Positions 4,555 to 64,000 of a stretch of DNA of 64,000 nucleotides are shown one piece after another. The DNA comes from Roseateles sp. XES5. Lineage in GTDB: Bacteria; Pseudomonadota; Alphaproteobacteria; Rhizobiales; Rhizobiaceae. Positions within the stretch are counted from its first letter, which is position 1. Each line of letters starts with the position of its first letter. The notes beneath the pieces are model-generated. The model searched no databases and was not told the origin of the DNA. It worked only from the letters and a program-made list of their open reading frames with translations. A program made the position numbers and the translations under genes. The stretch spans positions 620,001 through 684,000 of the forward strand of contig NZ_CP084753.1 in the NCBI RefSeq assembly GCF_020535545.1. The letters run 5' to 3'.

Positions 4555-4874
4555 AGGATCACTCCCTGCAGCAGCCAGAGGACGAGGATGAGGACGAGGC
4601 CGACCAGCACGGTGAGCCAGGCACTGCCGACCAGCGCCCGGTGTCCGGCGAGCGGCACGCCGGCCCGCCGGACGGTGGCGAGCGCCGCTTCGAATTCCGC
4701 CGCACGCGGAAAAGCGAAGCGGTGCTCGCGCCCGGCGATGACCAAGTCTATCGTCATCGCCGCCCGGTCGGCGACGCAGCCGGTCGCCTCCGTGAGCCGG
4801 GCTGCGAAGTCCGGTTCGCCGCCCTCAAGCGAGGCGATGGCGACGGGGTCGGTAACGAGATGCCGGAACTCCAT
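4551..4874 (-). CDS. Small tail-anchored membrane protein of unknown function
   Basis: A 107-aa protein that I do not recognise. The first about 75 residues are soluble and mixed alpha/beta in appearance; residues about 82-107 form one hydrophobic segment rich in Leu and Val ending LLQGVIL, so it is probably a C-terminally anchored single-pass protein. It sits 20 bp after the aldehyde dehydrogenase gene and overlaps ridA by 4 bp, so it is cotranscribed and probably translationally coupled. It may tether or assist one of the operon enzymes or a transporter; that is speculation. Confidence 0.65.
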   Translation of the reverse strand: MEFRHLVTDPVAIASLEGGEPDFAARLTEATGCVADRAAMTIDLVIAGREHRFAFPRAAEFEAALATVRRAGVPLAGHRALVGSAWLTVLVGLVLILVLWLLQGVIL

Positions 4875-4894
4875 GACCCACCCCGCCCCTTTCG

Positions 4895-46314: not shown

Positions 46315-46379
46315 ATCTGCCTCCCTTTCAGCCGAAGGCGCGGCCCCGCAAGGCCGCGCCGGTTGTCGTCGTATCGCGA

Positions 46380-47429: not shown

Positions 47430-47446
47430 GGCAGTCTCCTCCAGGG

Positions 47447-48220
47447 TTATCGGCGCAGGCGGCCGAGGAAAAACGAAAGCGACACGAGCAGCACCGAAAC
47501 GAAGAGCATCACCGCCGAGATGGCGTTGATCTCCGGTGTGATGCCGGCGCGGATGGCCGAGAAGATGTAGACGGGCAGCGTCGTCAGGCCGGGGCCGGCC
47601 AGGAAGAACGAGGTCAGGAAGTCGTCGAGGCTGGTGACGAAGGCGAGCGTGAAGCCGGCCATGACGCCGGGCCAGAGCAGCGGCATCGTCACCCGGCGGA
47701 AGGTGCGGAAGCGGTTGGCGTAGAGATCGTGCGCCGCCTCCTCATAGGTGCCGCTGATGCCGTCGAGCCGAGCGCGAATCGGCAGATAGGCGAAGGGGAT
47801 GCAGAAGGCGGTGTGGGCCGCCACCATCGCGCCGAGGCCGAGCGTCACGCCGAGCGAAACGAAGAGCAGCAGGGTTGCGACCGCCACGGCGATTTCCGGC
47901 AGGATCAACGGCATGTTGAGGATCGCCTCGGACGCCCCGCGGCCGAGGAAGGCGCGCCGGGTGGCAAGCGCGGCAAGCAGCGCGAGGATGGTCGCCGCCG
48001 TCGCCGCCGAGATGGCGATGACCAGCGAGTTCCACGCCGCCGCCTGGATCGACGGATTGACGAGAATGCGGCCGTACCAGTCGAAGGAGGCGTGGGTCCA
48101 CACCGTCGCCGTGCGGTTGGCGTTGAAGGAATAGGCGATCAGCACCACGACGGGCACGTAGAGATAGGCCAGCACGAAGAGCGCGGTTTCGCGCGTGAAG
48201 GGAAAACGCCGCGGGTTCAT
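47447..48220 (-). CDS. PotC-like ABC transporter permease
   Basis: A 257-aa permease with six helices. VVVLIAYSFNANRTATVWTHASFDWY at the N-terminus is a PotC signature, and YEEAAHDLYANRFRTFRRVTMPLLWPGV is the EAA loop; FVTSLDDFLTSFFLAGPG is also conserved. Its ATG overlaps the PotB-like stop by 4 bp. A longer in-frame extension to the right is non-coding in this frame. Confidence 0.9.
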   Translation of the reverse strand: MNPRRFPFTRETALFVLAYLYVPVVVLIAYSFNANRTATVWTHASFDWYGRILVNPSIQAAAWNSLVIAISAATAATILALLAALATRRAFLGRGASEAILNMPLILPEIAVAVATLLLFVSLGVTLGLGAMVAAHTAFCIPFAYLPIRARLDGISGTYEEAAHDLYANRFRTFRRVTMPLLWPGVMAGFTLAFVTSLDDFLTSFFLAGPGLTTLPVYIFSAIRAGITPEINAISAVMLFVSVLLVSLSFFLGRLRR

Positions 48221-49089
48221 GCGGTCCTCCTGTTGCGCCAGAGCGCCATGGCGGTCATCACGACGAGCATCAGTCCGAGAAGGACGACGGCGAGCGTCGC
48301 GCCGAAGGGCCAGTTGCGCGAGGCGCCGAACTGCATCTGGATGATGTTGCCGAGCATCAGCGTCTTGCCGCCGCCCAGCAGGGCGGGCGTGACGAAGGCG
48401 CCAAGGCAGGGAATGAAGACGAGCAGCGCGCCGGCGACGATGCCGGGCGTGGCGATGGGCAGCACGACGCGGCGCAGCGCCCGCCGGCGCGTCGCGCCGA
48501 GATCGTGCGCGGCCTCGAGCAGCCGCCAGTCGAATTTCTCGAACACGGTATAGAGCGGCAGGATGGTGAAAGGCAGGAAGGAATAGGTAAGGCCGATCGC
48601 CACCGCCGCGTCGTTGTAGAGAAGCTGCACCGGCCAGGGCGAGATCATGTTGACGAATTTCGATACCCAGCCATCCTCGCGCAGGATGATCAGCCAGGCA
48701 TAGTTGCGCACCAGAAGGTTCGTCCAGAACGGGATGGTGATGAGCAGCAGCATGACGTCGCGGCCGGTGCGGCCAAGGCTTGCCATCCACAGCGCCACCG
48801 GCAGGCCGAGCGCAAGGCTCAGCACGGTGGTCACGGCGGCCAGCACCACCGAGCGCAGGAAGATCACCAGGTAGCTGGTGTTTAGGATCATCGTCCCGTC
48901 GAAATCCTCCTCCCAGGCAAGGCGCACATAGTTGGCGACCGAGGGCGCGGAGGACCAGTCGACGCCCGATGTGCCGCCCTTGTCGAGCAGCGAGACCCAG
49001 GCCATCAGGCAGAGCGGTACGCCGATGAGGAAGAGGATGACCGCAAGGGCCGGCGACAGAAGGAAGAAGCGGCGGAGCGCGGCGCTCAT
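48217..49089 (-). CDS. PotB-like ABC transporter permease
   Basis: A 290-aa permease. The EAA loop [28 protein letters not shown] is present, followed by [31 protein letters not shown], a PotB hallmark. It overlaps the ATPase gene upstream by 4 bp and the PotC-like gene downstream by 4 bp. Confidence 0.9.
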
Positions 49090-50153
49090 TGGGCGAGCAC
49101 CCGCAGCGCTTCGGCCGGCAGCGCGAGGCCGACGCGGCTTCCCGTTTCGGGCGCGGCCTCCGTCGGATCGGACTGGCGCAGCAGGAAGGTGCCGCCGCCG
49201 GGAAGATCGAGCTTGTGCAGCATTGCGGTGCCGAGATAGGCCGAATGCACCAGCGTCGCCTCCAATGCGCCCTCGCCGACCGGCACCAGCTTCGCCCGCT
49301 CGGGGCGGATCGCCACCGTCACCTTGCCGGACGCCGCATGCGGGGCGGCAAGCACCGCGCCACCCTCCAAGCGAACGCCGCCGCCCGGCAGCGCCTCCCC
49401 GTCCAGGAGGTTGATATCGCCGATGAAATCGGCGACGAAGCGGTGCGTCGGCGCTTCGTAGATTTCGCGGGGCGGCCCCATCTGCAGGATGCGGCCCGAC
49501 TGCATGACGGCAACGCGGTCGGAGAGCGTCAGCGCCTCCTCCTGGTCATGCGTGACGAAGAGGAAGGTGATGCCCGCCTCTTCCTGCAGCAGTTTCAGTT
49601 CGATCTGCATTTCCTTGCGGAGCTTGAGATCAAGTGCCGAGAGCGGTTCGTCCAGCAGCAGCAGGCCCGGCGCCGTGGCCAGCGCCCGCGCCAGGGCCAC
49701 GCGCTGCTTCTCGCCGCCCGAGAGCTCGGCGGGCTTGAGCGTGGCGAAACTGCCCATGCGCATCATCTCCAGCGCCTCGCCGACGCGCTTGCGGATGGCA
49801 TCGCGCGCCATGCCCTGCTCTTCCAGCGCAAACGCGACGTTCTGTTCCACGGTTAGATGCGGGAAGAGCGCGTAGCTCTGGAACACCGTATTGACGGGGC
49901 GGTGGAAGGGCGGGCGGGCGGTCACGTCCTCGCCCTCGATGGAGATCGCGCCGGTATCGGCGGTCTCGAAGCCGGCGATCAAACGGAGCAGCGTGGTCTT
50001 GCCGCAACCCGACGGGCCGAGCAGCGTGAAGAACTCGCGTCGCCCGATATCGAGCGAGACGTCGTCCAGCACGCGGAAGGCATAAATGCCCTTCCCGAAA
50101 CTCTTGGCGACATTTCTGATGGAAACCGCGGGGGGACTGGACGCTTGGGTCAT
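49086..50153 (-). CDS. PotA-like ABC transporter ATP-binding protein
   Basis: A 355-aa ATPase with Walker [11 protein letters not shown]-loop [11 protein letters not shown], signature [15 protein letters not shown], Walker [14 protein letters not shown]-loop THDQEEA and a C-terminal TOBE_2 domain (about 280-350). It is the first gene of the five-gene minus-strand operon potA-potB-potC-potD-like plus amidohydrolase. The promoter region to its right contains repeated TATGCGA elements. Confidence 0.92.
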
Positions 50154-50678
50154 GTTTTCCTCTTGGGCGTTTCATCAAGCGTCCAGCATGGTATCACATT
50201 TGTCAATATTGTATGCAAATATTCGCATACGATTTAATGCAAAATCTTGCTCGCCCCGTGAAACCCTACCCCACTGAAAGGAAGCCGCATGCGCCCACAC
50301 GGCGCTGCCAAGCAATCCGCGCCAACCACTCATCAATTTGATTTACAATAATTTATTCCAAAATATTGCGTGCGATCGAAGCATTCAAAGGTCATCCTCG
50401 CCGACCACATCAGAATTTTTTATATGCGAATGCAGCATGAAATCGTATGCGACACCTGCCAATACATGGCCCGAAGCCAGGCATATTCAGAAATTCCTCC
50501 ATAGTATCCGGAGGCTATGCCGACATATTGTATACATTGCAGCGCAGCATTCCGTTCGGCTTAGCGGCCGCCTAATCAACGATGAACCAAACGCTCATGT
50601 CGGCGCTTTTCGCCTTCCACTACACATCGGCAAAGGCTGGCCATCGGGTCGGCGTTCCGGGAATGGAAGGAAAGCGGC
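50154..50678. promoter_or_regulatory. 525-bp AT-rich divergent region with clustered operator-like repeats
   Basis: Between the potA-like operon and the flavin monooxygenase gene lie ATTGTATGCAAAT (50208-50220), ATTCGCATACGATTT (50221-50235), TATGCGA (50423-50429), AAATCGTATGCGAC (50440-50453) and ATTGTATACAT (50527-50537). The second and fourth are inverted copies of each other (14 bases). The distribution places one cluster near each divergent start. No protein-coding frame here is convincing. The base composition is clearly more AT-rich than the surroundings. Confidence 0.55.
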
Positions 50679-51929
50679 ATGGCAGTGGAAAAAGTGGATA
50701 CGCTGGTCATCGGCGCAGGCCAGGCGGGTGTCGCGATGAGCGAACATCTCGGCCAGCGCGGCCTTTCTCACCTCGTACTGGAAAAGGCCCGCATCGCCGA
50801 AAGCTGGCGCACCGCGCGCTGGGATAGCCTCGTCGCCAATGGCCCGGCCTGGCACGACCGCTTCCCCGGTATGACCTTCCCCGGCCTCGAAGACGAGGCT
50901 TTCGCCCCCAAGGAGCAGGTCGCGGACTATTTCGTCAGCTACGCGGAGAAGATCAAGGCGCCGATCCGCTGCGGCGTCGAGGTGCGGTCCGTCAGCAAGG
51001 CAGGCGAGACCTTCCGCGTCGAGACCTCCGACGGCGTGATCGAGGCGACAAACATCGTTTCCGCCACCGGCGCCTTCCAACGCCCCGTGATGCCCGCCCT
51101 CGTACCGACGCAGCAGGGCCTCACCCAGATCCATTCCAACACCTACCGCAATCCCGGCCAGTTGCCCGAGGGCGCGGTGCTGGTGATCGGCGCCGGCTCC
51201 TCCGGCACGCAGATCGCCGACGAGCTTCTGCGCGCCGGCCGGCGCGTCTACCTCTCCATCGGCCCGCACGACCGCCCGCCGCGCCGTTACCGCGGCAAGG
51301 ATTTCTGCTGGTGGCTCGGCGTGCTCGGCATCTGGGACCTCAAGGTGCCGGCGCCGAACACCGAGCATGTCACCATCGCGGTCAGCGGCGCCTATGGCGG
51401 GCAGACGGTCGATTTCCGCCGCCTCGGCAATCGCGGCATGACGCTGCTCGGCCGGGCCGAAGCCTACAAGGACGGCGTGCTGCAGGTCGCGCCTGACCTC
51501 GCGGAGAACATCGCCCGCGGCGACGCCAATCACCTCTCCCTGCTCGACCGCGCCGACGCCTACGCCGCCGAACACGGCCTCGACCTGCCGGAGGATCCCG
51601 AGGCGCGCCACAAGGAGCCGGATCCGGCCTGCGTCACCGATCCGATCCTCGCCCTGAACCTGAAGGACGCCGGCATCACCACCATCATCTGGGCGACAGG
51701 CTATGCGGTCGACTACGGCTGGCTGCAGCTCGATGCGCTCGACGAGAAGGGCCGCCCGGTGCATGAGCGCGGTGTCTCGAAGGTCCCCGGCCTCTTCTTC
51801 GTCGGCCTGCCCTGGCTGTCGCGCCGCGCTTCCTCCTTCATCTGGGGCTGCTGGCACGATGCGGACTATCTCGCCGGCTATATCGCCGAGCACCGCAACA
51901 GGCAGGCAGCCGCCGCCGCGGCCTCCTGA
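50679..51929 (+). CDS. Flavin-containing monooxygenase (CzcO/FMO family)
   Basis: A 416-aa class B flavoprotein using FAD and NADPH to insert oxygen into a small-molecule substrate. The FAD motif VIGAGQAGVAM is at residues 10-20, the NADPH motif VIGAGSSGTQIA at about 168-179, and the FMO-like HSNTY at about 150 and the ATGY motif near 345 are present. It starts with ATG at 50679 after GGAAGG. It is followed by a LysR regulator and an aldehyde dehydrogenase in the same direction, and by the amine dehydrogenase. It may oxidise the acid produced by those enzymes; this is inferred from position only. Confidence 0.83.
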   Translation: MAVEKVDTLVIGAGQAGVAMSEHLGQRGLSHLVLEKARIAESWRTARWDSLVANGPAWHDRFPGMTFPGLEDEAFAPKEQVADYFVSYAEKIKAPIRCGVEVRSVSKAGETFRVETSDGVIEATNIVSATGAFQRPVMPALVPTQQGLTQIHSNTYRNPGQLPEGAVLVIGAGSSGTQIADELLRAGRRVYLSIGPHDRPPRRYRGKDFCWWLGVLGIWDLKVPAPNTEHVTIAVSGAYGGQTVDFRRLGNRGMTLLGRAEAYKDGVLQVAPDLAENIARGDANHLSLLDRADAYAAEHGLDLPEDPEARHKEPDPACVTDPILALNLKDAGITTIIWATGYAVDYGWLQLDALDEKGRPVHERGVSKVPGLFFVGLPWLSRRASSFIWGCWHDADYLAGYIAEHRNRQAAAAAAS

Positions 51930-52087: not shown

Positions 52088-53047
52088 ATGGTGTTGCGCT
52101 TCACGCTCCGGCAACTGGAATATCTCGTCGCAGTCGGCGAGTACGGCTCCGTCACGGAGGCGGCCGAGCGGGTGAATGTGTCCGCGCCCTCCGTCTCGGC
52201 CGCGATCTCGCAGCTCGAGAAGGAGTTCGGCATCAACCTCTTCGTGCGCCGCCACGCGCATGGCCTCTCGCTGACACAGGCCGGCCACAGCTTCGTCGCG
52301 CAGGCGCGGCAGATCCTCGCGGAGGCCGCCAAGCTCAACGCCCTGTCCAACGAGCTGACCGGCCAGGTGCGCGGGCCGCTGCATGTCGCCTGTCTCGTCA
52401 CCTTCGCGCAGGCCGTTATCCCCTCGCTGCGCCGCGCCTTCTCCGATGCCTATCCCGACGTCGATTTCTTCCAGTACGAGCGCGACCAGGCGCGTATCCT
52501 CGAAGGGCTGCGCATGGCGCGCTTCGACATCGCGCTCAGCTACGACCTCGACATTCCCGCCGACATGACCTTCCACGAGCTTGCCGTGCTGCCGCCCTAT
52601 GCGGTGCTGCACGAGGACCATCCGCTGGCCAGCCGTCGCGAGGTGACGGTAGAGGACCTTGCGCCCCATCCGATGATCCTGCTCGACCTGCCGCATTCCT
52701 CGGCCTATTTCCTCTCGCTCTTCCGCGACGCCGGCCTGACGCCGCGCGTCGCCGAGCGCACCCGTGACATGTCGGTCATGCGCGCCATGGTCGCCAACGG
52801 CTTCGGCTATTCCATCGCCAACATCCGGCCCGTTTCCAGCTACGCGCTGGATGGCGGCAAACTCGTCTTCGTGCCGCTGACCGGGAACCTGCGCCCCATG
52901 CGCATGGGCATCCTCTCCATGGCCGGCGCGAACCCGGCGCTCACCGTGCGCCGTTTCATCGATTTCTGCAGCGAGACGATCCGCGGCATGGGCATGGACC
53001 TGCCGGTCTCAGCCGATGCCGCCCAGCAAGAGAAAGGCCCTACATGA
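52088..53047 (+). CDS. LysR-family transcriptional regulator
   Basis: A 319-aa regulator with an N-terminal HTH (FTLRQLEYLVAVGEYGSVTEAAERVNVSAPSVSAAISQLEKEFG, broken at the turn) and a C-terminal PBP2 effector domain. I chose the ATG at 52088, preceded by AGGGG, over longer frames. Its stop overlaps the aldehyde dehydrogenase ATG (ATGA), so regulator and enzyme are made together. The ATTAG-N7-CTAAT element at 54722-54738 upstream of the amine dehydrogenase is a plausible target. Confidence 0.87.
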   Translation: MVLRFTLRQLEYLVAVGEYGSVTEAAERVNVSAPSVSAAISQLEKEFGINLFVRRHAHGLSLTQAGHSFVAQARQILAEAAKLNALSNELTGQVRGPLHVACLVTFAQAVIPSLRRAFSDAYPDVDFFQYERDQARILEGLRMARFDIALSYDLDIPADMTFHELAVLPPYAVLHEDHPLASRREVTVEDLAPHPMILLDLPHSSAYFLSLFRDAGLTPRVAERTRDMSVMRAMVANGFGYSIANIRPVSSYALDGGKLVFVPLTGNLRPMRMGILSMAGANPALTVRRFIDFCSETIRGMGMDLPVSADAAQQEKGPT

Positions 53048-54525
53048 CGACGAGCATCGACTGGCGCGCCCGCGCGGCAAGCCTCAAATTCCGCAACGGC
53101 CTCTTTATCGACGGCCGTTTCCGCGATGCGGCGAAAGGCGGCCGTTTCGAGACCGTCAATCCGGCCAATGCCCAGGTGCTGACCGCCGTTGCCCGCGGCA
53201 CGGCGGAAGACGTCGACGCCGCCGTCGCTTCGGCCCGCCGCGCCTTCGAGGATGGGCGCTGGTCGGGCAAGTCGCCGGCCGAACGCAAGGCGGTGCTGCT
53301 TCGCCTTGCCGCCCTGATCCGCGAGAACGTGCCGGAACTTGCCCTGCTCGACACGCTCGACATGGGCAAGCCGATCAGCGACAGCTCGACCATCGACGCG
53401 CCCGGCTCGGCGCATTTCTTCGAATGGCATGCCGAGGCCATCGACAAGCTCTATGACGAGATCGCCCCCACCGGGCGCGGTGACCTCGCCATGATCCGCC
53501 GCGTGCCGCTCGGCGTCATCGGCGCCGTCGTACCGTGGAATTTCCCGCTCGACATGGCGACCTGGAAGCTCGCGCCGGCGCTGGCGACCGGCAACTCCGT
53601 CGTGCTGAAGCCGGCCGAACAGTCCCCGCTCTCCGCCCTGATGCTGGCCGAGCTTGCCTCGGAGGCGGGCCTGCCGGACGGCGTGCTCAACGTCGTGCCC
53701 GGCTTCGGCGAGGATGCCGGCCGTGCGCTCGGCCTGCACCCGGATGTCGATGCCCTCGTCTTCACCGGCTCCACCAAGGTCGGCAAGCTCTTCATGACCT
53801 ATGCGGGCGAGAGCAACATGAAGCAGGTCTGGCTGGAGACGGGCGGCAAGTCGCCGAACCTCGTCTTCGCCGACGCCGACCTCGACAAGGCGGCCGAGAT
53901 GGCGGCCTTCGGCATCCTGTTCAATTCCGGCGAGGTCTGTTCGGCCAATTCCCGCCTCCTCGTGCACCGCTCCGTGCAGGAGGAATTCACCGAAAAGCTG
54001 ATCGCCGCGACATCGGCCTGGCCGCTCGGCGATCCGCTCGACATCGCCACCCGCATGGGCCCGCTGGTGGAAAAGAGCCATGCCGACCGCGTCGCCGCCT
54101 ATATCGACATCGGCCGCAAGGAAGCCCGTCTCGCCCATGGCGGCACGCGCGAGACGCGCGACGGCTCGGACTGCTACATTCAACCGACCATCTTCAACGA
54201 GGTCGCGCCGGACGCCCGCATCGCGCGGGAGGAAATCTTCGGCCCCGTGCTCGCCATCACGCCCTTCGACAGCGACGAAGAGGCACTGCGCATCGCAAAC
54301 GACAGCGAATACGGCCTCGCCGCTTCCGTCTGGACGCGGGATCTTTCCCGTGCGCTCTCGGTCTCGGACCGGCTGAACGCCGGCACGGTCTCCGTCAACA
54401 CGGTCGATGCCCTCTCCGCCATGACGCCCTTCGGCGGCGTCAAGCAGTCCGGTTTCGGCCGCGACCTCTCGATCCACAGCTTCGACAAGTATTGCTCGCT
54501 CAAAACCGTGTGGGTGAAATACTAG
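53044..54525 (+). CDS. Aldehyde dehydrogenase (PuuC-like)
   Basis: A 493-aa NAD-dependent ALDH. Key residues are visible: VVPWNFP (162-168), FTGSTKVGKL (about 240-249), general base Glu265 in LETGGKSPN and nucleophile Cys299 in NSGEVCSANSR. The group includes PuuC, which oxidises gamma-glutamyl-gamma-aminobutyraldehyde and other amine-derived aldehydes. Here it is followed by a histamine-dehydrogenase-like enzyme, whose product aldehyde (imidazole acetaldehyde if the call is right) would be its substrate. It overlaps the LysR gene by 4 bp. Confidence 0.88.
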   Translation: MTTSIDWRARAASLKFRNGLFIDGRFRDAAKGGRFETVNPANAQVLTAVARGTAEDVDAAVASARRAFEDGRWSGKSPAERKAVLLRLAALIRENVPELALLDTLDMGKPISDSSTIDAPGSAHFFEWHAEAIDKLYDEIAPTGRGDLAMIRRVPLGVIGAVVPWNFPLDMATWKLAPALATGNSVVLKPAEQSPLSALMLAELASEAGLPDGVLNVVPGFGEDAGRALGLHPDVDALVFTGSTKVGKLFMTYAGESNMKQVWLETGGKSPNLVFADADLDKAAEMAAFGILFNSGEVCSANSRLLVHRSVQEEFTEKLIAATSAWPLGDPLDIATRMGPLVEKSHADRVAAYIDIGRKEARLAHGGTRETRDGSDCYIQPTIFNEVAPDARIAREEIFGPVLAITPFDSDEEALRIANDSEYGLAASVWTRDLSRALSVSDRLNAGTVSVNTVDALSAMTPFGGVKQSGFGRDLSIHSFDKYCSLKTVWVKY

Positions 54526-54720: not shown

Positions 54721-54739
54721 GATTAGTCTAAACCTAATC
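54721..54739. promoter_or_regulatory. LysR-type box ATTAG-N7-CTAAT upstream of the amine dehydrogenase
   Basis: GATTAG (54721-54726) and CTAATC (54734-54739) form a perfect 6-bp inverted repeat with a 7-bp spacer, the T-N11-A form preferred by LysR regulators. It lies 77 bp upstream of the start at 54816. The LysR protein at 52088 is the nearest candidate ligand. Confidence 0.55.
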
Positions 54740-54815: not shown

Positions 54816-56897
54816 ATGCGCGACGCCAAATACGATATCCTGTTCGAACCCCTCGCGATCGGCCCGCATGTCGCGAAGAACCGGTTCTACCAGGTGCCGC
54901 ATTGCAATGGCGGCGGCTACCGCGATCCGTCCGCGGCCGCGGCCATGCGCGGCATCAAGTCGGAAGGCGGCTGGGGCGTCATCTTCACCGAGCAGACCGA
55001 GATGCACCACACCTCGGAAATCACGCCCTTCATCGAGCTGCGCCTTTGGGAAGACAAGGACATTCCCGGCCTTCGCCGCATGTCCGACGCCATGAAGGTG
55101 CATGGTGCCCTCGCCGGCATCCAGCTTGCCTATTCCGGCATCAACGGCCCGAACTTCTACACCAAGGAAGTGCCGCTTGCCCCCTCCGCCCTGCCGATCC
55201 GCACCTTCACCAACGACCCGGTGCAGGCCCGCGCCCTCGACAGGTCCGACATCAAGGATCTGCGCCGCTGGTTCGTCAACGCCGCCAGGCGCTCCAAGGT
55301 CGCCGGCTTCGACCTCATCTGTCTTTACGGCGCGCACGGCTTCGGCATCTTCCAGCACTTCCTGTCGCGCGCCACCAACCAGCGCACGGACGAATATGGC
55401 GGCAGCCTCGAAAACCGGTCGCGCTTCGCCCGCGAGGTCGTTGCCGATATCCGCGACGCCGTCGGCGACACGACCGCGATCACCATGCGCGTCAGCCTCG
55501 ACGAGACCATTGGCGAACTCGGCTTCTCCAATGCCGAAGTGCGCGAATTCGTCGAGATGAATGCCGACCTGCCCGACCTCTGGGACCTTGCGCACGGCGC
55601 CTGGGAAGACTGTTCCGGCCCTTCGCGCTTCAAGGAAGAGGGCGCGCAGGAACTTCTGGTCAAGGGCATCCGCGAGCTCTCCTCCCGGCCCGTCGTCGGC
55701 GTCGGCCGCTTCACCTCGCCGGACGTCATGGCGCGCATGATCCGCCAGGGCGTGCTCGACTTCATCGGCTGCGCCCGCCCGTCGATCGCCGACCCCTTCC
55801 TGCCGAAGAAGATCGAGGAAGGCCGCATCGAGGACATCCGCGAATGCATCGGCTGCAACATGTGCATTACCGGCGACATGACCATGTCGATCAGCCGCTG
55901 CACGCAGAACCCGACCTTCATGGAAGAATGGCGCAAGGGCTGGCACCCGGAGCGCATGAACGAGAAGGGCGAAAGCCAGACGGTGTTGGTCGTCGGTGCC
56001 GGCCCCGCGGGTCTCGAAGCCACGCGCGCCCTGTCGCTGCGCGGCTATGACGTGACACTGGCCGAGGCCACGACGACGCTGGGCGGCCGCGTGGCCCGCG
56101 AGCGCCTGCTGCCCGGCCTTTCCGCCTGGGGCCGGGTCGTGGATTATCGCCAATACCAGATTTCCCAGCGCACCAATGTCGAGACCTATTTCGACAGCCG
56201 CCTGACGGCGGAGGACGTGCTGGGCTTCGGCTTCGAGCATGTCGCCATCGCCACCGGCTCGCACTGGCGGCGCGATGGCGTCGCCCGCCAGCACGTCGTG
56301 CCCATGCCGATCGATCCGGCCATGACCGTCTGGACGCCCGACGACGTCATGGCGAAGGTTCACCCCGAAAACCTCGCTGGCAAGACCGTCGTCGTCTACG
56401 ACGACGACCACTATTACATGGGCGGCGTGATGGCCGAGGTCATGGCGAAGGCCGGCGCCAAGGTCATTCTCGTCACGCCCTCCGCCTATGTCTCCGACTG
56501 GACGCGCAACACGCTCGAGCAGGGCGCGATCCATGTGCGCCTCGACGATCTCGGCGTCGACATCCGTCTCAACCGAGGCGTCACCGCCATCCGCACCGGC
56601 GAGGTCGAGACCAACTGCACCTATACCGGCCGGAAGACCGCCATCGGCTGCGACGCCGTCGTCATGGTCGCCTCCCGTCTTGCCGAGGACGCGCTCTACA
56701 ACGACCTGATCACCCGGCAGGCGGACTGGGCCGATGCCGGCATCAAGACGGTCAAGATCATCGGCGATGCCAGCGCCCCGGCCCCCATAGCCTGGGCGAC
56801 CTATGCCGGCCATCGCTATGCGCGGGAACTGGACACGCCCGATATCGGCGACGCCCTGCCCTTCCGCCGCGAAGTCACCCAGCTCGAACCGGCATGA
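54816..56897 (+). CDS. hdh: Trimethylamine-dehydrogenase-family flavoprotein, probable histamine dehydrogenase
   Basis: A 693-aa iron-sulfur flavoprotein: an OYE-type FMN barrel (1-340), a [4Fe-4S] site (Cys344, Cys347, Cys350, Cys362) and ADP/FAD-like nucleotide-binding domains (about 380-690). Cys30 in RFYQVPHC matches the Cys that covalently holds FMN in trimethylamine dehydrogenase, and Tyr171/His174 in YGAH match its Tyr169/His172. The substrate bowl differs: Tyr60 is Gln60, Trp264 is kept as Trp263 and Trp355 is Asp354. As I recall, Gln/Trp/Asp is the set in histamine dehydrogenase, and the Rhizobium enzyme is also 693 residues. It would oxidise histamine to imidazole acetaldehyde and ammonia. 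Alternatives are dimethylamine- or dimethylglycine-type N-demethylases. Confidence 0.75.
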   Translation: MRDAKYDILFEPLAIGPHVAKNRFYQVPHCNGGGYRDPSAAAAMRGIKSEGGWGVIFTEQTEMHHTSEITPFIELRLWEDKDIPGLRRMSDAMKVHGALAGIQLAYSGINGPNFYTKEVPLAPSALPIRTFTNDPVQARALDRSDIKDLRRWFVNAARRSKVAGFDLICLYGAHGFGIFQHFLSRATNQRTDEYGGSLENRSRFAREVVADIRDAVGDTTAITMRVSLDETIGELGFSNAEVREFVEMNADLPDLWDLAHGAWEDCSGPSRFKEEGAQELLVKGIRELSSRPVVGVGRFTSPDVMARMIRQGVLDFIGCARPSIADPFLPKKIEEGRIEDIRECIGCNMCITGDMTMSISRCTQNPTFMEEWRKGWHPERMNEKGESQTVLVVGAGPAGLEATRALSLRGYDVTLAEATTTLGGRVARERLLPGLSAWGRVVDYRQYQISQRTNVETYFDSRLTAEDVLGFGFEHVAIATGSHWRRDGVARQHVVPMPIDPAMTVWTPDDVMAKVHPENLAGKTVVVYDDDHYYMGGVMAEVMAKAGAKVILVTPSAYVSDWTRNTLEQGAIHVRLDDLGVDIRLNRGVTAIRTGEVETNCTYTGRKTAIGCDAVVMVASRLAEDALYNDLITRQADWADAGIKTVKIIGDASAPAPIAWATYAGHRYARELDTPDIGDALPFRREVTQLEPA

Positions 56898-56907: not shown

Positions 56908-57981
56908 ATGACTGAGCCCAAGGCCATCGAAGTGAAGTCGGTCTCCAAAAGCTTCGGGGCCTATCAGGCGCTGAAATCGGTCAGCTTCCATATCGGCAGC
57001 AACGACTTCCTGACCATCCTCGGCCCCTCGGGCTGCGGCAAGAGCACCCTGCTGCGCATCGTCGCCGGCTTCGAAAGCCCCGATAGCGGCTCGATCCTCC
57101 TCAACGGCAGGGAAGTCGTCGCCATCCCGCCGCACAAGCGGCGGGTCAACACCGTCTTCCAGAGCTACGCCCTCTTCCCGCACATGACGCTGGAGCAGAA
57201 CGTCGCCTACGGCCTCGAAAACCTCGGCTGGGAACAGGCGCGCATCAGGACCCGCGTCGGCGAAATGCTGGAGCGCGTGCATATGGGGGCGATGGCGAAA
57301 CGCAAGCCCGCCCAGCTTTCCGGCGGCCAGCGCCAGCGCATCGCCCTTGCCCGGGCGCTCGCGCCCGAACCGGAGGTTCTGCTGCTCGACGAACCGCTCT
57401 CCGCCCTCGATCTTAAGCTGCGCCAGGCGATGCGCGACGAGCTTCGCACGCTGCAGCGCGATACCGGCATCACCTTCGTCTTCGTCACGCACGATCAGGA
57501 AGAGGCGCTCGACATGTCGGACCGCATCGCCGTGCTCGGCGGCGGCGAGGTGCAGCAGATCGGCACGCCGTCCGAGATCTACGAGGAACCGGTCAACCGC
57601 TTCGTCGCCGATTTCGTCGGCGAGACGAACTTCCTCGACGTGGAGGTGCTGGAAGCCGGCGTGGGCGAGGCGACCATCCGCATGCCCTTCGGCCTTGCGA
57701 TCACCGTGCCGGCGACCGGCCCGACCGACAGGGGCCGCGCGACGCTTTCGGTCCGGCCGGAGAAGATCAATCTCGGCAACCAGGCCGAGGGCGTGACCTT
57801 CGAGGGCCGCATCACCCACAAGAACTACATGGGCGGCTATACCCACTACACGCTCGACGTCGCGGGCACGGAACTGCGCGCCTCACGGCGCAATGCGTCC
57901 CGCGAAGGCGACACGATCCCGCTCGGCGCGACGGTCCCCGTCGGCTTCGTCGCCGGCTCGGCGCGGGTGCTGTCGGCATGA
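56908..57981 (+). CDS. PotA-like ABC transporter ATP-binding protein
   Basis: A 357-aa ATPase starting at ATG 56908, ten bases after the dehydrogenase stop. Walker A GPSGCGKST, Q-loop [11 protein letters not shown], signature LSGGQRQRIALARAL, Walker [14 protein letters not shown]-loop THDQEEA and a TOBE_2 C-terminal domain are present. It is the first subunit gene of a PotABCD-type importer in the same transcription unit as the amine dehydrogenase, so the imported ligand is likely that enzyme's substrate. Confidence 0.92.
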   Translation: MTEPKAIEVKSVSKSFGAYQALKSVSFHIGSNDFLTILGPSGCGKSTLLRIVAGFESPDSGSILLNGREVVAIPPHKRRVNTVFQSYALFPHMTLEQNVAYGLENLGWEQARIRTRVGEMLERVHMGAMAKRKPAQLSGGQRQRIALARALAPEPEVLLLDEPLSALDLKLRQAMRDELRTLQRDTGITFVFVTHDQEEALDMSDRIAVLGGGEVQQIGTPSEIYEEPVNRFVADFVGETNFLDVEVLEAGVGEATIRMPFGLAITVPATGPTDRGRATLSVRPEKINLGNQAEGVTFEGRITHKNYMGGYTHYTLDVAGTELRASRRNASREGDTIPLGATVPVGFVAGSARVLSA

Positions 57982-58907
57982 CGGAGAGCGCCCTCCATAT
58001 CCCCGCCGAAACGGCGCGCGGCCCCCGCGCCCGTTTCTGGCACGACCTGTCTTTCTGGGGCCTCCTGCCCTCGCGGCTCCTGATGGGCTTCGCGCTCATC
58101 CTGCCGATCTTCATCATCGCCGCGGTGTCGGTGGCAACGCGCGGCGCCTATGGCGGCTTCACCTGGGACGTCAACTTCGCCGGCTACAGCCAGATCCTCT
58201 TCAACGAGGGCTGGACGGGCGAGCTCGAATTCACCCCGCAATATCTCCTCATCATCGGCCGCACCTTCCTGCTCGCCGGCGCGACGACGCTGATCTGCCT
58301 CCTCTTCGCCGTGCCGGTCGCCTATTTCATCTCGCGCCAGCCGCCGGGCCGCAAGGCGGCGCTCGTCTATCTCGTCACGCTGCCGTTCTGGGTCTCGATG
58401 ATCCTGCGCGTCTATGCCTGGATGATCATTCTCGGCAAGGACGGCACGCTGCCGAACCTTCTCGAAACGCTGGGCTTTCCCGCCGGCATGAGCTTCATGT
58501 TCAACGACGGCGCGACGCTGACGGCCATGGTCTATACCGCCATGCCGCTGATGGTGCTGCCGGTCTTCGCCTCCATCGAGAAGCTGGACGGAACCCTGAT
58601 CGAGGCCTCGCACGACCTCTACGGCGACCGCTGGGTGACTCTGCGCCGGGTGATCCTGCCGCTGACGGCGCCGGGCCTGACCGCAGGCGCCATCCTCGTC
58701 TTCGTGCCTGCGCTCGGCGCGGTGCTGGAGCCGACGCTGATGGGCGGCGGCAAGCAGATGATGATGGGCTCGCTCATCCAGCTGCAGTTCGGCGGCGGTC
58801 GCAACTGGCCCTTCGGCGCGGCCATCGCCATGACGCTGATGGCGCTCGTCATGCTCTTCCTGATCGCCACCGCGCTGCGCGCCGCCCGCCGGGAGGCGAC
58901 GCCATGA
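57978..58907 (+). CDS. PotB-like ABC transporter permease
   Basis: A 309-aa permease with a polar N-terminal extension (about 30 residues) before the first helix. TLIEASHDLYGDRWVTLRRVILPLTAPGLT is the EAA loop, and FVPALGAVLEPTLMGGGKQMMMGSLIQLQFG follows as in PotB. Overlaps of 4 bp on both sides indicate translational coupling. Confidence 0.91.
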   Translation: MTESALHIPAETARGPRARFWHDLSFWGLLPSRLLMGFALILPIFIIAAVSVATRGAYGGFTWDVNFAGYSQILFNEGWTGELEFTPQYLLIIGRTFLLAGATTLICLLFAVPVAYFISRQPPGRKAALVYLVTLPFWVSMILRVYAWMIILGKDGTLPNLLETLGFPAGMSFMFNDGATLTAMVYTAMPLMVLPVFASIEKLDGTLIEASHDLYGDRWVTLRRVILPLTAPGLTAGAILVFVPALGAVLEPTLMGGGKQMMMGSLIQLQFGGGRNWPFGAAIAMTLMALVMLFLIATALRAARREATP

Positions 58908-59713
58908 GCATCCACCACGACGTCAAGCGTTATCCGGGGCTCGGCCCCCTCACCGTCTTCTTCTTTCTCTATCTCTATGCACCGCTCGCGGTCATCGTCG
59001 TCTATTCCTTCAACGCCAATCGCGTGGCCGGCGTCTGGACCGGCTTCTCGCTGAAATGGTACGGCTCGGCGCTCAACAATGCCGCGCTGATGAACGCGCT
59101 GAAGATCTCGCTGACCGTCGCCGCGGTCGCCACCGTCGTCTCCACGCTGATCGCGCTGTCCGCCGCGCTTGCCATCATCCGCGGCAAGAACCTGCGCTTC
59201 CGCAGGCTGTCGGAGACGATCGTCAACCTGCCGCTGCTGCTGCCGGAAATCGTGCTCGCCGTCGCGACGCTCATCCTCTTCTCGCTGCTCGACATCCAGA
59301 ACGGCATGGTGCGGCTCATCATCGCCCATTCCGCCTTCTGCACGCCCTTCGCCTTCCTGCCGATCCGCGCCCGCCTGCAGGGCATGTCGCTCGATCTGGA
59401 AGAGGCGAGCGCCGATCTCTATGCCGACCGCTGGACGACCTTCCGCCGCGTGACGCTGCCGCTGATCTTCCCGGGCGTCTTCTCGGGCGCGATGCTCGCC
59501 TTCCTCATTTCGATGGATGACTTCATCACCTCGAACCTGCTGTCGACCGGCGGCTCGACGACGCTGCCGGTCTATGTCTTCTCGCTGATCCGCGCCGGCA
59601 CCTCGCCGGAGCTGAACGCCATCGCGACGCTGCTGATCCTCGCCTCGCTCGTCCTTGCCACCGTCGCGCTTCTCGTCGCCGCGCGCGGTGCCCGTGAAAA
59701 TGCCGAACCATAA
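58904..59713 (+). CDS. PotC-like ABC transporter permease
   Basis: A 269-aa permease. VIVVYSFNANRVAGVWTGFSLKWY near the N-terminus is the PotC hallmark, and LEEASADLYADRWTTFRRVTLPLIFPGV is the EAA loop. ATG at 58904 overlaps the PotB-like stop; the open frame reaching further left is not coding. Confidence 0.91.
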   Translation: MSIHHDVKRYPGLGPLTVFFFLYLYAPLAVIVVYSFNANRVAGVWTGFSLKWYGSALNNAALMNALKISLTVAAVATVVSTLIALSAALAIIRGKNLRFRRLSETIVNLPLLLPEIVLAVATLILFSLLDIQNGMVRLIIAHSAFCTPFAFLPIRARLQGMSLDLEEASADLYADRWTTFRRVTLPLIFPGVFSGAMLAFLISMDDFITSNLLSTGGSTTLPVYVFSLIRAGTSPELNAIATLLILASLVLATVALLVAARGARENAEP

Positions 59714-59732
59714 TCAAAGAGAGGAACATGAC

Positions 59733-60749
59733 ATGAAGACGTATCTTGCAGCCACCGCCATCGCCCTTTGCTTCGCCACGGGCGCTCAGGCCGCCGGAGA
59801 ACTCAACATTTATGCCTGGGCCGAATCCATTTCGCCCGACCTCATCGCGAAATTCTCGAAGGAGAACGACGTGAAGGTGAATGTCGACAGCTTCACCTCC
59901 AACGAGGACCTCCTGACCAAGCTGCAGGCCGGCTCCTCCGGCTACGATATCGCAACGCCCTCGCAACACTTCCTGCGCGTGATGATCGACCAGGGCATCA
60001 TCGAGAACTTCGAGGCCAACAAGCTGAAGGCCTATGAGAACATCGAGGAGAAGTGGCGTAACCAGTGGTGGGACGAGAAGCAGGAATATTCCATTCCGCT
60101 CGCCTACGGCACGGCCGGCTTCGTGGTGAATACGGACCAGTACAAGGGCCCGACCGACAGCTTCAAGTATTTCTTCGAGCCGGACGGCGAACTGAAGGGC
60201 AAGATCGCACTCCTCTCCTATCCCGACGAGGTGATCGGCGCCGCCCAGCTCTATCTCGGCGTGCCCTTCTGCTCGGAAGACCAGGCGGAGATGAAGAAGG
60301 TGCTGGACCTGCTGATGGCGCAGAAACCGTCCGTTGCCGTCTACTCCTCCGACAATATCGCAAGCCGCCTCGCCTCCGGCGAAGTCTCGGCGCATTTCTG
60401 GTGGGATGGCGACTCCCTGCGCGCCCGCAAGACCGGCTCGCCGGTCAAGCTCGCCATGACCAAGGAAGGCCTCGTCGGCTGGATGGACAGCTACGTCATT
60501 CCGAAGGACGCGCCGAACCGCGACAATGCGGTGAAGTTCATCGAGTTCATGTCGACGGCGGAGAACGCCACGGAGCAGATGAATTTCTACTCCCATTCCT
60601 CGCCCATGAAGGTCATTCAAGACAAGGTCGTCAACACGAAGGAAACCGCGCCGGAACTCTATCCGGAGGTTCCGATCACCTTCTCGCGCACCTGCTCGGC
60701 TGCCGCGCAGGATCTGGTGACCCGCGTCTGGACGCAGCTTCTGCAGTAA
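59733..60749 (+). CDS. PotD-like periplasmic binding protein (putative amine ligand)
   Basis: A 338-aa secreted binding protein with a signal peptide ending near AQAAGE. The mature start LNIYAWAESISPDLIAKFSKENDVKVNVDSFTSNEDLLTKLQAGSSGYDI is the polyamine-binding pattern, and CSEDQ and the C-terminal FSRTCSAAAQDLVTRVWTQL are present. It starts at 59733 with GAGAGGAA upstream. It is the last gene of the amine dehydrogenase/transporter unit. The ligand is inferred as histamine or a related biogenic amine from the operon. Confidence 0.9.
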   Translation: MKTYLAATAIALCFATGAQAAGELNIYAWAESISPDLIAKFSKENDVKVNVDSFTSNEDLLTKLQAGSSGYDIATPSQHFLRVMIDQGIIENFEANKLKAYENIEEKWRNQWWDEKQEYSIPLAYGTAGFVVNTDQYKGPTDSFKYFFEPDGELKGKIALLSYPDEVIGAAQLYLGVPFCSEDQAEMKKVLDLLMAQKPSVAVYSSDNIASRLASGEVSAHFWWDGDSLRARKTGSPVKLAMTKEGLVGWMDSYVIPKDAPNRDNAVKFIEFMSTAENATEQMNFYSHSSPMKVIQDKVVNTKETAPELYPEVPITFSRTCSAAAQDLVTRVWTQLLQ

Positions 60750-60995: not shown

Positions 60996-61694
60996 TCAGA
61001 GATACATTTGCTTGATCGTGTCGTCCTTCAGCATCTGCTCGCGCGTGCCCTCGACCGCGATCTGGCCGCGCACCAGCAGATAGCCGCGATCGGCGATCGA
61101 CAGGGCCTTTTCCGCATTCTGCTCGATCAGCAGCACGGTGCGCCCCTCGGCATGGATGCGCGCCACGGTCTCGAAATATTCGTCGATCAGTTTCGGCGAG
61201 AGGCCGAGCGAGGGCTCGTCCATGATCAGCAGATCCGGATCGCCGATCAGCGCGCGGGCGAGCGCCACCATGGCCTGCTCCCCGCCGGACATGGTGCGTG
61301 CCTGCTGGCCGATGCGCTCCTTCACGCGCGGGAAAAGGTCGTAGATCACCTCGAGTCGCGCCTCGAAGGGCGTCTTGCAGCTGGCGGCGTCATAGCCGAG
61401 CTTCAGGTTTTCGCGCACCGTGAGAGAAGGAAACAGCTTGCGCCCCTCCGGCACGAAGCCGACGCCGAGCGCACCGAGCTTTTCCGTGCCCGTGCGGGTC
61501 ACGTCCGCGCCCTTCATCGAAACCGTGCCGCCGTCGAGCGGCAGGAGGCCGGAGAGCGCCTTGAAGGTGGTCGATTTTCCCGCCCCGTTCGGGCCGAGAA
61601 GGCAGACGAGTTCGCCCTTCTTCACGCTGAGCGAAACACCGCGCAGCATGGAAACCTGCCCGTAGGAGGTGCTGATATTGGCAAGTTCAAGCAT
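60996..61694 (-). CDS. livF: Branched-chain amino-acid ABC transporter ATP-binding protein LivF
   Basis: A 232-aa ATPase of the Liv/Urt family. MLELANISTSYGQVSMLRGVSL is the typical LivF start, with Walker A GPNGAGKST, LGVGFVPEGRKLFPSLTVRENL, signature MSGGEQAMVALARAL (usual Q replaced by A) and Walker B LLIMDEPSLGLSP. ATG at 61694 overlaps livG by 8 bp. The HAAT family also includes urea (UrtE) and amide transporters, so the substrate is not fixed. Confidence 0.9.
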   Translation of the reverse strand: MLELANISTSYGQVSMLRGVSLSVKKGELVCLLGPNGAGKSTTFKALSGLLPLDGGTVSMKGADVTRTGTEKLGALGVGFVPEGRKLFPSLTVRENLKLGYDAASCKTPFEARLEVIYDLFPRVKERIGQQARTMSGGEQAMVALARALIGDPDLLIMDEPSLGLSPKLIDEYFETVARIHAEGRTVLLIEQNAEKALSIADRGYLLVRGQIAVEGTREQMLKDDTIKQMYL

Positions 61695-62478
61695 CTTCCA
61701 CCGCCTTCTGGCCGAGATAGGCCTGCTGCACGCGCGGCAACAGCCGCACCTCGGCGAATTTGCCGTGCGCGATCTTCTTGCCGTAATCGATGACCACGAC
61801 ATCCTGCGGCAGGTCCGCCACCAGACGCATGTCGTGCTCGATGATGAGGAAGGACAGGCCGGGATTTTCCGCCATGACGCGGCGGATATCGGCCATCAAG
61901 TCGGCCGTGTCGCGGTCGTCCATGCCGGAGGAGGGTTCGTCGAGCAGGATCAGCTTGGGCTTCGAGGCGAGCGCGCGGGCGATCTCCAGCCGTCGCCGGT
62001 CGGCCTGCGGCAGGATGCCTGCGGGCTCGTGGCGGCGGGCGAAGAGCTCGTCCGACAGGCTTTTCAGGATGCGTCCGGCCTCGTCGGCGCAACCGGCCAG
62101 CTCACGGCGAGCGCGGCCGGGGGCCAGGAGCGCCGTCAGGACGCCGGTCCTGGTGCGCGAATGCATGCCGATCATCACATTGTCCAGGATCGGCAGGTCC
62201 TCGAAGAGGCGTGAGGACTGGAACGTGCGGGCAATGCCCTTGGCCGCAACCTGATGAGCCGGAAGGCCCGTGATATCGACGCCGTTCAAGGCGACGCTGC
62301 CGGCGGTCGGCTTGTAGATGCCGGTGATCAGGTTGAACAGCGTGGATTTGCCCGCCCCGTTCGGCCCGATGATGCAGGTGATATGACCGGCCGGCAGGTC
62401 GAAATTCACGTCGTCGACGGCCACCAGCCCCCCGAAGCGGATGCCGAGACCACGCAATGAAAGCAGCGGCTCTGTCAT
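61687..62478 (-). CDS. livG: Branched-chain amino-acid ABC transporter ATP-binding protein LivG
   Basis: A 263-aa ATPase. LLSLRGLGIRFGGLVAVDDVNFDL and Walker A GPNGAGKST, ITGIYKPTAGSVALNGVDITGLPAHQVAAKGIARTFQSSRLFEDL are LivG patterns, with Walker B LILLDEPSSGMDD. The usual signature LSxGxQ is degenerate (GILPQADRRRLEIARAL), which occurs in LivG proteins. It overlaps livM by 4 bp and livF by 8 bp. Confidence 0.9.
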   Translation of the reverse strand: MTEPLLSLRGLGIRFGGLVAVDDVNFDLPAGHITCIIGPNGAGKSTLFNLITGIYKPTAGSVALNGVDITGLPAHQVAAKGIARTFQSSRLFEDLPILDNVMIGMHSRTRTGVLTALLAPGRARRELAGCADEAGRILKSLSDELFARRHEPAGILPQADRRRLEIARALASKPKLILLDEPSSGMDDRDTADLMADIRRVMAENPGLSFLIIEHDMRLVADLPQDVVVIDYGKKIAHGKFAEVRLLPRVQQAYLGQKAVEDA

Positions 62479-63653
62479 GAATGGGCTCCATAATGGCGCG
62501 GGCGCTGCGGGAAGAGGCCCTTGGGGCGCAGCACCAGGAAGAGGATCACCACGACCGACACGAAGAGCAGGCGGTAATCGGAGAAGATGCGCAGCTTTTC
62601 CGGCAGGAGCGTGAGCAGGAAGGCGCCAACGATCACCCCGAACGTGTTGTCCATGCCGCCGACGATGACCATTGTCATGATCGTCACCGAGACGAGGAAG
62701 GTGAAATTGTCGGGCGAGATGTAGGAAACGTAGAAGGCATAGATCGTGCCGGCGAAGGCCGCGAGGAAGGCGTCCACCGCGAAGGCGAGGATCTTGTACC
62801 AGGCGACGTTGATGCCCTGACAGCGCGCCGCCAGCTCATCGGCGCGGATGGCGTTCCAGGCAAGACCGATACGGCTTTCATGCAGGCGCTTGGCCGAGAG
62901 GATGGCAAGGCCGAGCAGCGACGCCGCGAGATAGTAGAAATTGGCCTGCGACGGCAGACGGAAACCGAAGACGACGATCGGCTGCATGAAGGAATGGCCG
63001 AAGAGGCTGGGCGCCGGGATGCCGACCAGACCGTTCGGACCGCCGGTCCAGCTCAGATTGTTCAGCATCTGGTGGATGACGATGCCGAAGGCGATGGTCA
63101 CGAGCGCGAGATAGCTGTCGCGTGCCCGCATGGAGGGAATGCCGAGCAGGAAGCCGAAGGCGGTGGCAACGAGGGCCGCGGCCGGCAGTGTCGCCCAGAG
63201 CGACAGGCCGAAATTGATGGCGAGCAACGCCGAGGTATAGGCGCCGATGCCATAGGTCGCTCCGGTCGCGAAATTCGGGATATTGGCGGAGCCGAGCTGG
63301 AAATTCAGCGCCAGCGCCAGCACCGAATAGAGCAGCGCGACGATGACGAGGTGCAGCGCATAGGTGTTGTTACCGAGGAAGAACGGATAGGCGAGCACGA
63401 TCACGATGCCAAGCGCCATCGCCAGCTGGCGGGACGAGCGGAAGGCGGAGATGATCGTCTCCTCGATGGCGGGGCGCAGCTGGATCAGCGCGAAAGCACC
63501 GCCCATGACCGCGAAAAGCGCAAGGACCAGGGGCGTCGATTCCGCCGTCAGCAACGCCCAGAGCAGGGCGGCGCCGATGATCTCGGAAAGCACGACGATA
63601 AGGACGGGCGGTAAGGCGGACTGCGACGCCGAAGGGATGGCAGAAGTGGACAT
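62475..63653 (-). CDS. livM: Branched-chain amino-acid ABC transporter permease LivM
   Basis: A 392-aa permease with 9-10 hydrophobic segments. The sequence LNFQLGSANIPNFATGATYGIGAYTSALLA corresponds to the LivM/LivH pore motif, and FGIVIHQMLNNLSWTGGPNGLVGIPAP and ESRIGLAWNAIRADELAARCQGINVAWYKI are characteristic. It starts at 63653, 4 bp before the stop of the LivH-type gene. Confidence 0.9.
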   Translation of the reverse strand: MSTSAIPSASQSALPPVLIVVLSEIIGAALLWALLTAESTPLVLALFAVMGGAFALIQLRPAIEETIISAFRSSRQLAMALGIVIVLAYPFFLGNNTYALHLVIVALLYSVLALALNFQLGSANIPNFATGATYGIGAYTSALLAINFGLSLWATLPAAALVATAFGFLLGIPSMRARDSYLALVTIAFGIVIHQMLNNLSWTGGPNGLVGIPAPSLFGHSFMQPIVVFGFRLPSQANFYYLAASLLGLAILSAKRLHESRIGLAWNAIRADELAARCQGINVAWYKILAFAVDAFLAAFAGTIYAFYVSYISPDNFTFLVSVTIMTMVIVGGMDNTFGVIVGAFLLTLLPEKLRIFSDYRLLFVSVVVILFLVLRPKGLFPQRPRHYGAHS

Positions 63654-63657
63654 GCGC

Positions 63658-64000
63658 CTAGACCTTTTCGACGACGGCTTTGCCGAGCAGCCCGGAAGGG
63701 CGCACGCACAGCATCAGGATGACCAGCAGAAAGACGAAGACGAGGCGGTAGGATGCACCGTCGGTCATGTTCGCCTGCACGAGGGCCTCGATACCGGCAA
63801 TGGCAAGCGAACCCAGGATCGCCCCGCTCATCGAGCCGAGCCCGCCGATGACGGCCGCGGAAAAGCCGATGAGACCGAGCTGCACGCCGAAATCGAAGCG
63901 GACCACGCCGGCATGGCTGGCAAAGAACAGCGCACCGAGCGCGCCAACCGCGGAGGCGAGGAAGAAGGTGAAGGCGAAGACGCGCTCGGGGAAAATGCCC
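63658..64000 (-). CDS. livH: Branched-chain amino-acid ABC transporter permease LivH (5' end outside window)
   Basis: The last 113 codons of a permease whose frame is open to the right edge. FGVQLGLIGFSAAVIGGLGSMSGAILGSLAIAGIEALVQ is the conserved C-terminal LivH segment, ending with RLVFVFLLVILMLCVRPSGLLGKAVVEKV. The binding-protein gene is expected further right. Confidence 0.88.
   Translation of the reverse strand, partial: GIFPERVFAFTFFLASAVGALGALFFASHAGVVRFDFGVQLGLIGFSAAVIGGLGSMSGAILGSLAIAGIEALVQANMTDGASYRLVFVFLLVILMLCVRPSGLLGKAVVEKV

Follow-up and report, generated by a model that had tools for sequence, protein, structure and literature searches.

A histamine dehydrogenase gene within a probable histamine utilisation regulon of Roseateles sp. 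XES5

Genes at the locus

The stretch of DNA analysed here (the window) covers 64,000 nucleotides of Roseateles sp. XES5, a member of the Rhizobiaceae (NZ_CP084753.1, positions 620,001 to 684,000), and coordinates without a prefix refer to it. It contains a gene for a histamine dehydrogenase (HDH; 54816..56897, +) that runs from ATG to TGA and encodes 693 amino acids, with genes for enzymes and a regulator ahead of it and transporter genes behind it.

The first of the upstream genes encodes a flavin monooxygenase of the Pyr_redox_3 family (FMO; 50679..51929, +), probably an imidazoleacetate monooxygenase of the HinF type to judge from its counterparts elsewhere; the protein is 63-65% identical to the first gene product of operons in which an FMO gene is followed by genes for a RidA protein, a DUF1028 protein and an M20 deacylase. 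In a protein search (120 matches listed, from at least 8000 candidates) the most informative names were flavin-containing monooxygenase and similar ones, and an assignment as MSMEG_0569 flavin oxidoreductase was rejected, with 347.3 bits against a TIGR04046 cut-off of 498.35. Next comes a HinK-like LysR regulator (52088..53047, +; PF03466, PF00126) whose best matches in the PDB, at about 197 bits, are 3fzv and 6m5f, which we take to be HinK; the next match reaches 99 bits. The third gene encodes an aldehyde dehydrogenase (ALDH; 53044..54525, +; PF00171), a probable imidazole-acetaldehyde dehydrogenase of the HinD type. A preliminary description of this DNA had named a PuuC-like ALDH, a LysR gene and a flavin monooxygenase upstream of the dehydrogenase—all three are there, although the ALDH scores 632.6 bits against the PuuC model and so misses its cut-off of 850.

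Downstream lies a Pot-type ABC transporter, which the same description had correctly placed within 10 bp: 10 bp separate the HDH stop codon from the start of potA, and potA-potB and potB-potC each overlap by 4 bp. The set consists of a potA-like ATPase (56908..57981, +), which passes the PotA subfamily model TIGR01187 (365.7 bits, cut-off 355.6, scored on a longer open reading frame from 56803), potB-like (57978..58907, +; PF00528) and potC-like (58904..59713, +; PF00528) permeases, and a PotD/PotF-like solute-binding protein (59733..60749, +; PF13416) that we propose as a histamine binder. The PotB model gives 179.2 bits (cut-off 348) and the PotD equivalog model 155.7 bits (cut-off 582); the top PDB matches of the binding protein are PotD/PotF-type binders of the polyamines spermidine and putrescine. 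A second PotDCBA set, together with a gene for a cytosine-deaminase-like amidohydrolase, lies divergently from these genes at 45154-50153 (-). We rejected it as part of the unit, since no match to the amidohydrolase was found in the best 80 of at least 579 related loci.

The histamine dehydrogenase

The product of 54816..56897 is, by its sequence, a histamine dehydrogenase, an already known type of enzyme. Searched against the PDB, it aligns best with 6de6_A, at 1533 bits over all 693 residues and with no gaps, followed by 3k30 (819 bits), 6l6j (649 bits) and trimethylamine dehydrogenase (TMADH; 1djn, 521 bits); the aligned identities are 93.9% to 6DE6, 55.5% to 3K30, 47.7% to 6l6j and 41.3% to TMADH. 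PDB entries 6DE6 and 3K30 are the HDHs of Rhizobium sp. and Nocardioides simplex, whose activity and pocket are on record in the sections of PMC10180351 that deal with them. The Rhizobium sp. enzyme (UniProt Q60I59) is likewise 693 residues long, as the preliminary description had stated, and carries equal cofactor ligands and pocket residues; it is essentially the same enzyme. By analogy with the recorded activity of this 94% identical protein, the enzyme encoded here would oxidatively deaminate histamine.

The residues bear this out. Cys30 occupies the position of the 6-S-cysteinyl FMN (a predicted covalent link), the [4Fe-4S] cysteines are Cys344, 347, 350 and 362, and the Tyr/His pair is Tyr171/His174. 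All 15 of the cofactor, catalytic and pocket positions examined are the same as in 6DE6. The histamine pocket residues Gln60, Ile69, Phe72, Glu74, Asn110, Trp263 and Asp354 are shared by the window protein, 6DE6 and 3K30, whereas an eighth position is Tyr181 in the N. simplex enzyme and Phe176 in the other two. The same 15-residue signature was found in 83 of 84 sequences at 76% identity or more (the window protein, 6DE6, the best 80 of at least 579 loci, and the HDHs of loci L102 and L107); the remaining sequence has an X at position 60.

TMADH shares Cys30, the cluster cysteines and the Tyr/His pair, but has a Tyr in place of Gln60, and in its alignment Asp354 stands beside a one-residue gap, with a Trp opposite the gap and a Glu opposite the Asp. 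In a tree of 31 sequences, with 6DE6, 3K30, TMADH and 6l6j as references, the window protein forms one clade with 6DE6 and 3K30 (support 98/98), and TMADH, 6l6j and two paralogues of 51-52% identity fall outside it; the mutual order of these outer sequences is unsure because several are long branches. Both Gln60, instead of the Tyr60 of the TMADH bowl, and the position in the tree set the protein apart from TMADH. The preliminary description had read the cofactor residues and a Gln60/Trp263/Asp354 bowl as signs of HDH rather than TMADH, and had proposed an alignment and tree with the bowl residues mapped; each residue is as it stated, and the grouping with HDHs was found.

The two outer paralogues (L105:8001-10055 and L106:8001-10052) have Glu60, Ala72 and His110 in the pocket and lie amid unrelated genes with TRAP transporters nearby—they probably act on another amine. 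Two further paralogues in the window genome itself (L002, L003) were too distant to be considered HDHs, at 30-32% identity. Clusters in Xanthobacter (L016:3553, L018:3585) contain two HDH homologues each, the second of which (57%) keeps the pocket and has a Lys replacing His174 of the Tyr/His pair.

Conservation of the neighbourhood

Loci with a related HDH were collected from named genomes, and the best 80 of at least 579 confirmed relatives (at least 593 stretches) were compared; being the best matches, they represent close relatives, and almost all have titles that place them in the Alphaproteobacteria. Full 10-kb flanks were available for 64 of the 80 and short flanks for 16. Neighbours were counted by identity cut-offs (for instance, at least 45% for LysR and 55% for ALDH). 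The layout recurs in these best 80 of at least 579 loci: FMO was found in 67, LysR in 69 and ALDH in 45, and the Pot genes number three or more in 50. Clustering of the remaining open reading frames brought out RidA (66/80), DUF1028 (65/80) and M20 deacylase (60/80) as conserved neighbours. FMO, RidA, DUF1028 and M20 occur together in 51 of the 80, and all ten genes (six for enzymes or the regulator, four for Pot) in 25. Conversely, an ALDH of at least 55% identity is missing from 35 loci, and 30 have fewer than three Pot genes, counts that include the 16 short-flanked loci; in the 35, the enzyme for imidazole acetaldehyde may lie elsewhere in the genome or be of another kind. The transporter is of two types, with PotB at least 55% identical in 18 of these best 80 of at least 579 loci and 35-55% identical in 33.

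The window genome also has the RidA, DUF1028 and M20 genes, at C2:686031-688626, which is 2-5 kb past the end of the window (C2:684000). The pathway is therefore incomplete within the window. The three proteins are 97, 93 and 89% identical to their counterparts in Shinella zoogloeoides PQ7. Pfam gives no function for DUF1028, and M20 scores 364.4 bits against the equivalog model for acetylornithine deacetylase, above its cut-off of 297.7.

A branched-chain-type ABC transporter (livF, livG, livM and part of livH; 60996..64000, -) is situated between potD and these genes, with a LivK binding protein directly before RidA. In the Shinella relatives L009 and L102 potD and RidA adjoin, and a LivM of at least 55% identity was seen in two of the best 80 of at least 579 loci (85% and 71%); membership of the Liv transporter in the histamine unit is uncertain. 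Lying within the histamine cluster (60996-64000, -, and L099:6824-7960, +), it is a second candidate importer; similar genes occur in L017 and L064. In locus L107 a gene of the 4-hydroxyphenylacetate 3-hydroxylase family (3688-5220) stands between FMO and RidA, and proteins apparently of this family make up a cluster in 12 of the best 80 of at least 579 loci.

An operator-like palindrome

The 290-bp gap between ALDH and HDH holds an exact match to the palindrome TTAG-N7-CTAA (54723..54737, +), and a second exact match lies upstream of FMO (50561..50575, +). In an alignment of the gap from seven sequences (the window and six Rhizobiaceae loci) the half-sites are invariant. The preliminary description spoke of a complete operon: transporter and enzyme genes do stand together, but given this gap and its operator-like site they are not plainly one transcript. 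Scans for sigma-70 promoters and terminators found 1 and 8, against 1.3 and 6.2 in shuffles.

The two occurrences of the palindrome in the 64-kb window compare with 0.03 expected, and the whole 5.8-Mb genome has six, four of them outside the window, against 28 for the pattern read backwards. In the best 80 of at least 579 loci the motif occurs 124 times, compared with 9 in mononucleotide shuffles; at any other spacing in the range 3-12 the same loci yield 1-3 sites each. When each of the 256 possible four-base half-sites is scored at spacing 7, TTAG is enriched 46-fold over its own mean at other spacings, and the next half-site 3-fold.

Among the best 80 of at least 579 loci, the 350 bp upstream of HDH hold a site in 41 of 80 (standing 90-260 bp before the gene), those upstream of FMO in 33 of 65 and those upstream of potA in 32 of 59; a site is less frequent before LysR (8/70), RidA (4/67) and M20 (4/60), and never stands before ALDH (0/45), DUF1028 (0/65) or PotD (0/51). 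A site before HDH, FMO, potA or LysR was found in 63 of the 69 loci with LysR and in 1 of the 11 without it (Fisher 5e-8, kinship ignored). The exact motif also precedes HDH in loci L102, L107, L139, L140 and L141, and is missing there in L138 and L145; it is absent from Pseudomonas-type loci (L147-L151, L156-L158), from the Klebsiella, Pantoea, Ideonella and paralogue loci, and from the 16-kb stretch of the window genome with RidA, DUF1028 and M20. In L147, L148 and L150 a relaxed form, TAG-N7-CTA, is present some 160 bp ahead of FMO.

LysR sites typically have the form T-N11-A, which TTAG-N7-CTAA also has. The palindrome before HDH and FMO here, and before potA in relatives, suggests a single LysR regulon of which the transporter is part; the association of site and LysR gene is observed, and from it we infer that the LysR protein would bind the palindrome, presumably in response to a ligand.

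Relation to the hin pathway

As outlined in the portions of PMC8231116 and PMC6467879 on the Pseudomonas hin pathway, histamine is handled by a permease (HinA), an aminotransferase (HinC), an ALDH (HinD) and an FAD monooxygenase (HinF), and later by an enamine deaminase (HinL) and two amidases (HinH and HinG), with the imidazoleacetate-responsive LysR protein HinK as regulator. By comparison with these published descriptions of the Pseudomonas enzymes, FMO, LysR, ALDH, RidA, DUF1028 and M20 correspond in kind to hinF, K, D, L, H and G. The likeness extends to gene order: FMO-RidA-DUF1028-M20 are arranged like F-L-H-G in P. aeruginosa (PMC8231116, in part) in Pantoea At-9b and in genomes G058, G062, G146, G310 and G377, the last five with proteins 63-65, 63-64, 50-51 and 47-51% identical to those of the window genome.

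The hin systems of Pseudomonas putida U and P. aeruginosa, as far as PMC8231116 sets them out, thus share with the present locus a LysR regulator, an ALDH, an FAD monooxygenase, an enamine deaminase, two amidases and a dedicated transporter. They differ in using the aminotransferase HinC first and the APC permease HinA for uptake, where we find HDH and PotABCD, and in having their genes in separate clusters rather than one neighbourhood. The putative histamine pathway of Brevibacterium, in the account given in part of PMC6467879, likewise combines hin homologues with a possibly different first enzyme; there that enzyme is a homologue of a copper histamine oxidase.

When eight genomes were probed with the window LysR, exactly one LysR per genome matched at E<=1e-40. 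By coordinates, 2-3 kb separate the match from the DUF1028 gene in G310, G286, G387, G377 and G322, and it lies within about 1.2 kb of an ALDH gene (63-64% identical to the window ALDH) in G058, G062 and G146. In the latter three genomes a class III aminotransferase passing the NF009068 cut-off adjoins the ALDH. The NF009068 model has no more specific name than 'aspartate aminotransferase family protein', and we took it as HinC-type because of its position beside a HinK-like LysR and an ALDH. In G058, the one genome in which these neighbours were run against Pfam, a solute-binding protein follows the aminotransferase, and no HinA-like permease was seen at that locus. The arrangement resembles hinK-hinD-hinC with an adjacent binding protein gene, as described for P. 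aeruginosa in part of PMC8231116. In the window genome the best NF009068 match reaches 587 bits and misses the cut-off of 817.

Co-occurrence was scored in 398 genomes of the phylum, with at most 7 (HDH), 2 (DUF1028) and 4 (NF009068) candidates per genome and with cluster-type DUF1028 defined as at least 47% identical to the Pantoea protein. HDH at 75% or more was found in 9 genomes, cluster-type DUF1028 in 36 and an NF009068 aminotransferase above cut-off in 5; all 9 and all 5 fall within the 36, and no genome has both. The DUF1028 gene lies 3.3-11.6 kb from HDH in eight of the nine and on a different contig in the ninth (G008). The chance figure for this co-occurrence is 1.7e-16 with kinship ignored, six of the nine HDH genomes belonging to one genus; counted by genus, 4/4 and 3/3 fall within 26 of 213 genera (1.8e-7). 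Six genomes with only 49-54% HDH paralogues either lack cluster-type DUF1028 (four) or have it more than 500 kb away (two). HDH and the aminotransferase appear to be alternative first steps before one core module, although their non-overlap within the 36 is not significant (P = 0.21).

Interpretation and alternatives

We consider it highly probable that the locus is a histamine utilisation regulon. The Pot-type importer (56908-60749) would take up histamine, HDH would convert it by oxidative deamination to imidazole acetaldehyde, and the ALDH would oxidize this to imidazoleacetate; by the correspondence with hinFLHG, FMO would then attack the imidazole ring, and RidA, DUF1028 and M20 would finish the route to aspartate, the HinK-like LysR presumably governing the set through TTAG-N7-CTAA. 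Such a route amounts to the hin pathway with HDH replacing HinC and, probably, PotABCD replacing HinA. Histamine is the likeliest substrate because the first enzyme is an HDH and the others match the steps from imidazole acetaldehyde to aspartate. We also lean, with less assurance, towards a broader proposal: that Alphaproteobacteria have a second self-contained histamine regulon, with HDH rather than a transaminase, a histamine-binding Pot-type importer and a HinK-like regulator acting at TTAG-N7-CTAA, and that FLHG is a common core to which unrelated front ends (aminotransferase, HDH, copper oxidase) were fitted independently.

We count the transporter in the unit because of its position and the operator-like site common to relatives; that PotABCD carries histamine is what we infer from them. 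In a variant whose odds overlap with those of the regulon, HDH, ALDH and LysR would form the histamine unit and PotABCD would be a bystander, as the two types of Pot genes, and the absence of three or more of them from 30 of the best 80 of at least 579 loci, might suggest. We regard this as unlikely, with potA 10 bp behind HDH and an operator-like site before potA in 32 of 59 relatives. One could also see in the locus a general catabolism of di- and polyamines such as agmatine, putrescine and 1,3-diaminopropane, with PotABCD serving as a common polyamine importer and HDH as an amine dehydrogenase of broad range. The closest solved relatives of PotD do bind spermidine and putrescine, PuuC is the nearest model for the ALDH, and, in the substrate data of PMC10180351, the Rhizobium sp. 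HDH also oxidises agmatine (10% of the rate with histamine) and 1,3-diaminopropane (13%). But the conserved neighbours FMO, RidA, DUF1028 and M20 match the imidazoleacetate part of hin, and the 51-52% paralogues with a different pocket sit elsewhere, with no such set within 8 kb, which makes a polyamine role quite improbable.

Least probable of all, to our minds, is that FMO-RidA-DUF1028-M20 degrades a different heterocycle and that HDH stands beside it for another amine. DUF1028 has no function in Pfam, M20 scores as an acetylornithine deacetylase, and 22 of the 36 genomes with the cluster-type DUF1028 have neither HDH nor the NF009068 aminotransferase; against this, every HDH genome (9/9) and every aminotransferase genome (5/5) is among the 36, and both the order of the set and its protein classes agree with hinFLHG as presented in parts of PMC8231116 and PMC6467879. 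We therefore retain the histamine utilisation regulon as the preferred explanation.

Novelty and significance

The preliminary description had judged this layout to be not well described. In line with that, no description of an HDH operon was found in the titles and abstract openings of the open-licence papers listed in the searches, and the terms 'operon', 'gene cluster' and 'transporter' are absent from PMC10180351. The enzyme itself is known; the interest lies in its setting, with HDH, a likely importer, a regulator and the presumed histamine-to-aspartate genes side by side, a unit of which those searches showed no account. HDH serves in food histamine tests (PMC8372101, in part) and has been engineered for them (PMC10180351, in part). 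Its gene setting can be read as a pathway from uptake to aspartate, and it offers a candidate histamine-binding ABC importer, possibly a biosensor part, and a predicted operator that could serve in a histamine-inducible promoter. It also suggests what a DUF1028 and a RidA protein are likely to do, and opens the question of how often unrelated enzymes took over the first step of histamine breakdown.

Related genes on Klebsiella plasmids

A conjugative plasmid of Klebsiella pneumoniae (L101, 4180-16251) carries RidA-DUF1028-M20, FMO, a LysR gene and an ABC transporter, with HDH absent from the 31-kb stretch; the set is perhaps used for imidazoleacetate or a related compound. FMO and DUF1028 each matched 105 Klebsiella plasmid records.
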